Below, piece by piece: positions 12,504 to 15,336 of a stretch of 64,000 bases of DNA. The position numbers and the translations under genes were made by a program. The stretch's first letter is position 1; every line of letters starts with the position of its first letter. The notes beneath the pieces are model-generated. The model saw only the letters and a program-made list of their open reading frames with translations. It did no database searches and was not told where the DNA came from. Source of the DNA: Veillonellaceae bacterium (GTDB lineage: Bacteria; Bacillota; Negativicutes; JAAYSF01); assembly GCA_012523975.1 (NCBI GenBank), contig JAAYSF010000071.1:1-64000 (forward strand), given 5' to 3'.

Positions 12504-13034
12504 TTATAATTCCTCTACAGTAATATGGTTATTGGTATAGATACAGATACCGGCGGCAATCTCAAGAGATTCCCGAGCAATCTCGGGAGCTGTAAGATTT
12601 GAATGTTTTAGCAAAGCCCGTGCGGCTGCTAACGCATAGGAACCTCCTGATCCAATAGCCGTGACGTTATCATCAGGTTCAATAACTTCTCCGTTACCGG
12701 AAATAATTAGCATATGCTCTGAGTCAGTTACAATCAGAAGAGCCTCAAGTTTTCGCAAAACACGATCAGTGCGCCAATCTTTGGCCAGTTCAACGGCAGA
12801 GCGCATAAGGTTTCCGTTAAATTCCTCGAGTTTAGTCTCAAATTTACCAAATAAGGTAAACGCATCTGCGACCGACCCGGCAAAACCAGCCAAAACCTTC
12901 CCATGATAGAGGCGTCTGACCTTCTTTGCATTATGTTTCATTACGGTATTGCCGCCGAAAGTTACCTGCCCATCGCCGGCAATAGCCGTTTTTCCTCGAT
13001 GCCGTACAGCAACAATTGTTGTAGCATGAAACAC
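12504..13034 (-). CDS. hslV: ATP-dependent protease peptidase subunit HslV (ClpQ)
   Basis: HslV, 176 residues, is the proteasome-like N-terminal nucleophile peptidase. After a four-residue propeptide (MFHA) comes [20 protein letters not shown], with Thr5 as the predicted nucleophile. Bacillus ClpQ uses Ser, whereas this one has the canonical Thr. The conserved [13 protein letters not shown] and ICIYTN segments are present. Start is GTG with GGAGGTGG upstream, a few bases after the end of the xerC-like gene, so the two are probably cotranslated. Confidence 0.97.
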
Positions 13035-13047
13035 CTAAAACCACCTC

Positions 13048-13965
13048 CTATGCACGCGGATGTGCATGCTTGTATACTAGTCTTAAACTATCCTTCGCTG
13101 TGTCCATATCCAGCAGATGCGCAGGAAAGCTTACATGTCCCAGCATCTCTCTTATGGATGATAAATCGGCTCCATTTTTTAGTAAATGGGCAGCAAACGT
13201 ATTTCGCAGTGTCTGAGGGCTAATATTTTTTAATCCAGCCAAACGATCTACATATTTTGCGACAATCCGACGGACGCTACGATCAGTCAAAGGGCCGCCG
13301 TTCTTGTTAAGAAAAAGTATATCACTAATATAACTTTGGTCACTCTTACAAAGGTTAGGTCTTCCCTGCCCTAAATAACGTTCAACTGCACCTGCAGCGT
13401 GCCGGCCGATAGGTATCACTCTTTCTTTAATACCTTGCCCGTATACAAGAATGTAATGATTTAATAAATCAACGTCATTAACAGTTAAACCTATTAGCTC
13501 AAAAATACGCAATCCCGAAGCATACAATAATTCTAGAATAGCTGCATCGCGCATTCCCAATGAATCGGAGCCAGGGAGATCCAATAAATGGTTGATTTCA
13601 CAATAATCAAGATACACTGGTGGCCGTTTTTCAATTTTGGGAGTACGGATGTCCTTAGCTGGATTATCGGCAATTACGTTATTTCGGATCAGAAAACGAA
13701 AAAAAGACCTTAAACTTGCTATACGGCGAGCAATGGTCCGCTGGGAATACCCCTGGGCCTTAAGATTACCAAGATATGTTCTGATAAACATATGATTAAT
13801 ATCGTCAAAAAGAGCCTCACTAACACCCTGAAGCTTAGCAAATTCGAAGAAATTCTCAATATCTGCAAGATAGCTGGCCACGGTGAAAGGTGAGGCGTTC
13901 TTTTCAACTGTCAAATATAACAAGAATTGCTTAAATTGCTGCTGTAGCATATAGCTAGCTACCAC
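13048..13965 (-). CDS. xerC: XerC/CodV-type tyrosine recombinase homologue lacking catalytic residues
   Basis: A 305-residue XerC-family protein at the codV position. The SAM-like core-binding domain covers about residues 8-95 and the catalytic fold about 115-300. It aligns without gaps to Xer recombinases through ASGLRIFEL, GQGIKERVIPIG, SPQTLRNTFAAHLL, LGH and VYKHAHPRA. Arg153, Arg254 and His277 are kept. The catalytic Lys is Gln177 (GQG for GKG), the first His is Gln251 (QTLR for HxLR), and the nucleophile Tyr is Asp286. The frame is intact, with no stop or indel. Such a protein should bind DNA-like sites but not cleave. The ribosome site is weak; ATG at 13950 is an alternative start. Confidence 0.85.
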   Translation of the reverse strand: MVASYMLQQQFKQFLLYLTVEKNASPFTVASYLADIENFFEFAKLQGVSEALFDDINHMFIRTYLGNLKAQGYSQRTIARRIASLRSFFRFLIRNNVIADNPAKDIRTPKIEKRPPVYLDYCEINHLLDLPGSDSLGMRDAAILELLYASGLRIFELIGLTVNDVDLLNHYILVYGQGIKERVIPIGRHAAGAVERYLGQGRPNLCKSDQSYISDILFLNKNGGPLTDRSVRRIVAKYVDRLAGLKNISPQTLRNTFAAHLLKNGADLSSIREMLGHVSFPAHLLDMDTAKDSLRLVYKHAHPRA

Positions 13966-14013: not shown

Positions 14014-15336
14014 TTACGCAAGATTGTTGTCGAATTTTTCACTAAATTTTTGCAAAGAGCTTAAAGACCGTTCTGCAATCATTTTGTTCTTGACCTTTTT
14101 ATCACGAATTTTTTGGCCAAGGGGAGGCATCAAGCCAAAATTTATATTCATTGGCTGAAAACGTTTTGGATCGGCATGGGTTATGTATTGGCAAAGAGCG
14201 CCGTGGGCTGTATCTTCCGGAAAAATAAGCGGCTCTTTGCCCTTGGCTATCCTGGCGGCATTTATACCAGCCACTAATCCACTTGCAGCTGATTCCACAT
14301 ATCCTTCAACACCGGTCATTTGCCCGGCGAATAACAGATTTGACCTGTCAGCCATTTGCATTGTTGATTTTAAAAGCTTAGGTGAATTGATAAAAGTATT
14401 TCGGTGCATTACGCCAAATCGAACGAATTCTGCATTCTCAAGGCCAGGAATTAATCGAAAAACCCGTTCTTGCTCCGGCCATTTTAGATGCGTCTGAAAA
14501 CCCACAATATTATAAAGAGTCGCGGCAAAATTATCCTGCCTTAGCTGAACAACAGCGTATAGAGCTTCTCCAGATTCTGGGTGATCAAGCCCCACGGGTT
14601 TAAGCGGCCCAAATCGTAAAGTGTCAATTCCCCGCCTAGCCATTTCTTCAATCGGCATACATCCCTCAAAAAAGATAGCCTTTTCGAATTCTTTAATAGG
14701 TGCTGTTTGAGCGGCAGTAAGTTCTTGCCAAAACCGCTCATACTCTTCTTTAGTCATCGGGCAATTAAGATAATCTTCGTCACCTTTACCATAGCGTGAT
14801 GCACGAAAGACCTTTTCATAATTAAGCGATTCACTAGTCAAAATGGGCGCCGCCGCATCGTAAAAATATAAATACTCTTCCCCTGTCATTTGGCTTACCG
14901 CCTCAGACAACTTCTGTGATGTTAACGGCCCACTGGCAATAACAGCTAACCCCTCGGGTATTACAGCCACTTCAGAATTAATAACAGTTACCTTAGGGTG
15001 ATGATTTAAAGCTTCAGTTATAAAACTGCTAAATCCATCTCGGTCTACTGCAAGTGCACCGCCTGCAGGTACCCGATTAGCATCAGCCGCTTTCATAATC
15101 AGTGAATTCATCCGCCGCATCTCTTCTTTAAGAAGGCCTACCGCATTCTCAATTGCCGCCCCCCTTAACGAATTACTGCACACTAATTCGGCAAAATCCG
15201 CGGTGTGATGTGCAGGCGTCATGACCTTAGGCCGCATTTCATATAGTTCTACATTTACTCCCGCCTGGGCTATCTGCCACGCAGCTTCGCTTCCGGCGAG
15301 GCCGGCTCCAATCACTATTACTTTATCTATAGTCAT
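14014..15336 (-). CDS. trmFO: Folate-dependent tRNA (uracil-54-C5)-methyltransferase TrmFO
   Basis: TrmFO, 440 residues, makes ribothymidine at position 54 of the tRNA T loop, using methylenetetrahydrofolate and FADH2. The FAD-binding motif [13 protein letters not shown] is at residues 8-20. Cys53 lies in [11 protein letters not shown], and the catalytic Cys near 225 in [19 protein letters not shown]-terminal [18 protein letters not shown] is also diagnostic. It stands between topA and the xerC-like gene, the usual Firmicute order. Folate genes folP, folB and folK are a few kilobases upstream. Confidence 0.97.

Follow-up and report, generated by a model that had tools for sequence, protein, structure and literature searches.

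XerC normally helps to separate linked chromosomes, and accounts of the XerCD/dif system usually present it as nearly universal among bacteria and as serving chromosome dimer resolution. The locus analysed here lies in a 64,000-nucleotide window (the whole stretch of DNA studied) of a Veillonellaceae genome, and raises the question of why an xerC (codV) gene that has lost catalytic residues, the nucleophile included, should persist as an intact reading frame. The best reading of the comparative sequence data is that the product, without catalytic activity, has been kept as a DNA-binding partner of XerD, dimer resolution having moved to another tyrosine recombinase, termed TyR. That XerC became non-catalytic after TyR, with a 29-bp palindrome of its own, took over strand exchange in dimer resolution is considered probable (roughly 70%).

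The xerC locus and its altered active site

The features of the locus, all on the minus strand, are as follows.

12504..13034, minus strand: hslV, neighbour downstream of the dead xerC
13048..13965, minus strand: catalytically dead xerC/codV, 305 codons, GTG start (with an ATG at codon 6, 13950, as alternative start), best NCBIfam family TIGR02224, score below its cut-off
13051..13080, minus strand: C-terminal tail, residues 296-305 (...YKHAHPRA), conserved
13081..13245, minus strand: active-site region, residues 241-295, constraint largely lost
13108..13110, minus strand: codon 286, Asp for the nucleophile Tyr279 (alignment with E. coli XerD)
13201..13203, minus strand: codon 255, Asn for the His after LR (His248 column, near-invariant in 36 intact XerCs)
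13213..13215, minus strand: codon 251, Gln for catalytic His244 (alignment with E. coli XerD)
13435..13437, minus strand: codon 177, Gln for catalytic Lys172 (alignment with E. coli XerD)
13636..13944, minus strand: N-terminal SAM-like core domain for DNA binding (residues 8-110), still constrained
14014..15336, minus strand: trmFO, neighbour upstream of the dead xerC

The stop-free ORF of 305 residues, ending in KHAHPRA, occupies the orthologous position trmFO-xerC-hslV, the codV place named by the original prediction. Alignment with E. coli XerD bears out the four replacements proposed there (Lys172 to Q177, His244 to Q251, Tyr279 to D286 and the His following LR to N255), and likewise the retention of the three remaining catalytic residues, R148, R247 and H270 in XerD numbering. 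The alignment had been described as gap-free; a phmmer alignment to 1a0p places a 3-residue insertion near residues 210-215 and leaves the catalytic columns untouched. A sequencing error or misalignment behind the dead active site was ruled out, since the changes are unambiguous and D286 and the first Gln-for-His recur in a related genus of the same family (G001), the nearest relative.

The protein resembles XerC/CodV of XerCD-dif in its locus (trmFO-xerC-hslVU), its length and its two-domain fold, and also in the N-terminal domain and the tail. TIGR02224 XerC is its best NCBIfam family, with a score of 267.5 bits that lies below the cut-off of 335.15; the XerD model gives 264.7 bits, also below its cut-off of 330. 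It differs from XerC/CodV at four positions that are invariant in intact XerC (near-invariant in the His248 column), and within the catalytic R-K-H-R-H-Y set of the TIGR02224 equivalog the K, the first H and the Y are replaced. Pfam recognizes a SAM-like N-terminal domain and a phage-integrase domain. The AlphaFold model shows the two domains of the Xer fold, at a mean pLDDT of 78 that falls to 51-68 over model residues 241-300, and its top Foldseek match is XerD 1a0p, with modest TM-scores.

The prospective partners of the dead XerC are present in the genome: an XerD with all six catalytic residues intact on contig C17, and a dif site with an exact XerC arm on contig C65. The original prediction had asked for a full xerC/xerD pair elsewhere in the genome, of which only the XerD half was found. 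A second XerC was ruled out by a Pfam scan, in which the matches are XerD, the dead XerC, TyR and two further integrases, and no others.

The locus was compared across 101 genomes, namely the source genome (G000) and 100 relatives, of which two belong to its family and the others to its class. Among the relatives, 36 full-length XerCs are catalytically complete. Incomplete XerC ORFs occur in four of the 101 genomes: the source genome; G001; G038, from a separate family whose members G011, G029 and G045 have an intact XerC; and G017, from a third family, whose XerC has lost the first catalytic His and kept the Tyr. The source and G001 proteins have in common D286, Q251, P115, I154 and S269, the last three at columns that are otherwise near-invariant. 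Because they share these five derived states, XerC was most likely inactivated before the two genera split. In G002, which represents a third genus of the family, only a short codV fragment remains between trmFO and hslV (about residues 7-68, E 6e-4), and clearer fragments lie in the same place in G007 (E 1e-11) and G044 (E 1e-9). Other families of the class in the 101-genome comparison have no trace of codV. In sister lineages codV was first reduced to a fragment and later lost. The replacement can be traced by stage, with XerC intact, dead but constrained, fragmentary or absent, and both the incoming recombinase and the site on which it would act can be named.

A Cre-like recombinase and its palindrome at the terminus

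TyR of the source genome is a 326-residue tyrosine recombinase with the full set of catalytic residues, encoded on contig C65 and starting 33 bp after the palindrome. It reached the cut-off of no NCBIfam model, the XerC, XerD, XerS and XerA families included, and lies far below every Xer model (70.9 bits against NF001399, cut-off 279); its AlphaFold model is nearest to Cre. TyR was found in 48 of the 101 genomes, none of which has an intact XerC. By rows of the tree, intact XerC without TyR accounts for 34, TyR with XerC lost for 15, TyR with a dead XerC for 3, neither for 5, and TyR with intact XerC for 0. This is the pattern of a single-recombinase system, with one intact tyrosine recombinase and XerC absent or dead. 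Several genomes have neither an intact XerC nor a detected TyR (for example G013, G040, G047, G057, G058 and G078). Three of these that are nearly complete (G040, G057 and G078) also lack a detectable FtsK gamma domain along with TyR and a codV-place XerC, and so have no recognized dimer-resolution system.

In the source genome the palindrome comprises 29 bp (11+7+11), ACTAGCGATAA-TTTATAG-TTATCACTAGT, at C65:100211-100239, about 0.3 kb from the old dif. A search of the 101 genomes with the pattern ACTNNNGATAATTTATAGTTATCNNNAGT, allowing up to 3 mismatches, matched 37 of them: 33 have a single match, and in four (G006, G050, G067 and G077) a second, weaker match occurs; the reversed-pattern control gave 4 matches in total. 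The matches fall mostly in TyR genomes, with G003, G024, G027, G076 and G089 as exceptions, and in family f12 the palindrome is sometimes distant from TyR (167 kb in G085). TyRs at 48% identity have their own sites immediately upstream, ATATACGATAA-TTTAAGA-TTATCGTATAT and ATGTTCGATAA-TTTAAGA-TTATCGAACAT, in which the outer arm bases co-vary on both sides, which is what binding of the two arms by a single protein would predict.

Measured from dnaA, with some genome lengths rounded, the palindrome of seven genomes lies at 0.470-0.498 of the circle and TyR of seven others at 0.474-0.493; the old dif of XerC-intact genomes lies at 0.425-0.470. The site is therefore palindromic, essentially single-copy and located at the terminus, a position taken from closed relatives, the source genome being in 99 contigs. 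In several XerC-intact relatives dif adjoins lexA, often with a LysM gene in between, and it is this lexA(-LysM) neighborhood that TyR and the palindrome occupy.

Once TyR had taken over dimer resolution, catalysis by XerC would have become dispensable. TyR would act alone at the palindrome, as XerS, XerH and XerL act alone, and probably under the guidance of FtsK. Involvement of FtsK is suggested by its gamma domain, which is kept in 95 of the 101 genomes, among them TyR genomes without detected XerC or XerD, and which scores 102.3 bits in the source genome (contig C49).

Constraint on the dead XerC, the old dif and XerD

Between the source genome and G001 the XerC proteins are 62% identical, compared with 96% for XerD, 93% for HslV and 87% for HslU; the dead XerC therefore evolves fast. 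These two tips of the codon analysis belong to different genera, and a contig search for nearer relatives of the source genome gave one remote match. In a two-ratio codon model the omega of XerC is 0.212 on the two tips versus 0.087 elsewhere (2dlnL 20.7), and omega = 1 is rejected on them (2dlnL 97.7), with the caveat that synonymous sites are near saturation; no omega rise was found on the same tips for XerD or HslU.

The relaxation is unevenly distributed along the protein. Omega is 0.137 versus a background of 0.105 over residues 8-110 (2dlnL 2.1), 0.225 versus 0.092 over residues 111-240, 0.370 versus 0.028 over residues 241-295 (2dlnL 100.6) and 0.042 versus 0.076 over the tail residues 296-305, the likelihood ratios being optimistic because branch lengths were fixed from the whole gene. 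None of the 14 near-invariant positions of the N-terminal domain is lost in either protein, versus 16 and 20 of the 62 in the catalytic domain of the source and G001 proteins, respectively. By these measures, the N-terminal domain and the C-terminal tail of the dead XerC are still under purifying selection, and loss is concentrated mainly around the active site. The original prediction had argued for selection on the protein and for a DNA-binding or partner role; the dN/dS estimate that it called for supports the former, and the latter is favored by the constraint that the N-terminal domain and the tail have preserved.

The raised overall omega would also be expected if codV and the old dif were merely decaying without function after the TyR takeover, and the codV fragment that alone remains in the sister genus G002, the absence of codV from other families and the altered XerD arm of the old dif in the source genome are in keeping with such a passive relic. 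We regard this explanation as unlikely. Inactivation predates the split of the two genera, as judged from the five derived states, yet both ORFs are full length; neutral evolution is rejected, with the N-terminal domain and tail evolving like those of intact XerC; and the core of the old dif persists where the dead ORF persists.

Most of the XerC-intact relatives examined have a dif of the form ACGTCCGATAA-TATCTA-TTATGTTAAGT or nearly so. The Bacillus-like dif consensus had no match in the source genome, and a looser core search recovered the dif of its group. The old dif of the source genome, ATGTCCGATAA-TATATA-TTATGTATACA at C65:99879-99906, has an intact XerC arm and core; its 3 mismatches are confined to the XerD arm. 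The core GTCCGATAA-N6-TTATGT lies beside TyR in exact form in the source genome, G001 and G038 and with 1 mismatch in G017. TyR genomes without an XerC ORF have no exact core and few 1-mismatch matches, mostly with unrelated spacers. Retention of the old dif alongside a dead ORF fits a protein that is still used there, although age since replacement could contribute. An XerD-arm-like site, TTATGTAAACT, occurs on the contig of the window, 35 kb past its end (L106, C71:99285), and is a candidate XerD binding site.

The old dif and the TyR palindrome are separated by some 0.3-1.2 kb in the four genomes whose XerC is dead. Such proximity might suggest that the dead XerC, sitting on the old dif as on an accessory site, regulates TyR or serves it as an accessory subunit. 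We consider this improbable, since most TyR genomes have no XerC at all and the orientation and spacing of the two sites vary among the four genomes. An IMEX at dif, an element inserted there by the Xer enzymes of the host, was ruled out because there is no second dif copy: only one old dif is found near TyR in G000, G001, G038 and G017, and no element with two flanking dif copies.

The K172R substitution (GRG) is present in XerD of G017 (L054), of G038 (L055) and of four f11 genomes, G012 (L197), G030 (L099), G039 (L203) and G046 (L205); these cases come from three families, and TyR is present in each. The substitution was seen in no TyR-negative genome examined, and its confinement to TyR genomes suggests that XerD catalysis has been relaxed too, while XerD stays highly conserved. 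The replacement as a whole offers a natural separation of the catalytic from the non-catalytic roles of XerC and XerD. Another proposal is that the dead XerC supports recombination by XerD alone at the old dif, with XerD making the first strand exchange, other enzymes resolving the junction and TyR being a mobile-element integrase located nearby by chance. The six catalytic residues of the source XerD and the intact XerC arm and core of its dif would allow this. The changed XerD arm (TTATGTATACA), K172R in G017 and G038, the recurrence of TyR and its palindrome at the terminus where XerC and XerD are both undetected, and the lack of a two-dif-flanked element next to TyR together make it very improbable.

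If the dead XerC is instead a retained partner, it would still bind the old dif at its XerC arm and pair with XerD as a non-catalytic complex. In Bacillus subtilis, XerD is an SMC unloader at the terminus (Karaboja 2021, as cited in PMC12322038), and by analogy with the activity described there, such a role may explain why XerD is retained in many TyR genomes. The complex of dead XerC and XerD might perhaps serve this unloading at the terminus, or position FtsK or TyR.

Relation to known systems and origin of TyR

XerS/difSL and XerH/difH each pair a lone recombinase with a linked site (PMC5357621), and the TyR arrangement resembles them in having one recombinase gene by an inverted-repeat site near the terminus. 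TyR differs from them in falling outside the Xer subfamily, in a site with perfect or near-perfect 11-bp arms and a 7-bp spacer, and in that a dead XerC and a conserved XerD may persist alongside. The Legionellales recombinase XerL likewise acts singly; its repeats are long and perfect, and its gene is unlinked to its site (PMC9765430). XerL replaces XerCD order-wide and shares with TyR the long uninterrupted inverted repeats, whereas the TyR site often adjoins its gene. The TyR system would work like those of XerS, XerH and XerL, yet it belongs to no Xer family with an available model, and it provides a concrete, testable single-recombinase system for this class. The open-access literature on the class yielded nothing on XerC or dif, subscription papers lying outside the search.

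Cre/loxP and the plasmid multimer-resolution recombinases are the other point of comparison, as the TyR model best matches Cre and relatives of TyR on Alicyclobacillus plasmids (47-48% identity, up to 47.6%) have a site of the same kind. These 11+7+11 CGATAA/TTATCG sites, ATGTCCGATAA-GTGATTG-TTATCGGACAT and AGTATCGATAA-GATAAAG-TTATCGCTAGT, lie about 0.8-0.9 kb upstream; none was found for a TyR relative on one Paenibacillus plasmid. In contrast to the plasmid enzymes, TyR is chromosomal, located at the terminus and retained across many families. Presumably, the chromosome acquired a plasmid module for multimer resolution, which came to serve at the terminus and replaced XerCD catalysis there.

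The TyR tree rejects a grouping of the three TyRs from the source family (p-AU 1.9e-5), and the source TyR is 86% identical to that of G038 versus 79% to that of G001, so that TyR modules have probably been exchanged between lineages. Parsimony gives 5 independent replacements, a count made uncertain by weak support for the backbone of the species tree; a phylogenetic sign test had too few supported pairs. A wider proposal is that a Cre-like plasmid-type recombinase with its 29-bp palindrome repeatedly replaced terminal XerCD catalysis in the class, spreading from lineage to lineage as a module, and that dead XerC and XerD were kept for a time as a pseudo-recombinase on the old dif, so that XerCD/dif would have a non-catalytic function that outlives dimer resolution. 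We hold the case for this proposal in full to be evenly balanced.

Palindromes also occur in other settings. In G003, which is 84% complete and in which TyR and XerC were not found, a perfect palindrome lies near lexA (L175, C154:15837) and an exact old-dif core elsewhere (C5:7549). A perfect palindrome in G024 (L189, C6:84368; also L227) stands beside helicase and vWA genes, the genome being XerC-intact and without TyR; perhaps a mobile element or plasmid uses the site in G024, or the sequence is contamination. An imperfect palindrome in G089 (L187, C11:156646) lies within phage-like genes, including a tape-measure-like ORF. The second, imperfect palindromes of G067 (C17:171489) and G077 (C9:40023) have other tyrosine recombinases no more than about 1 kb away, and possibly mark elements that target the new dif.
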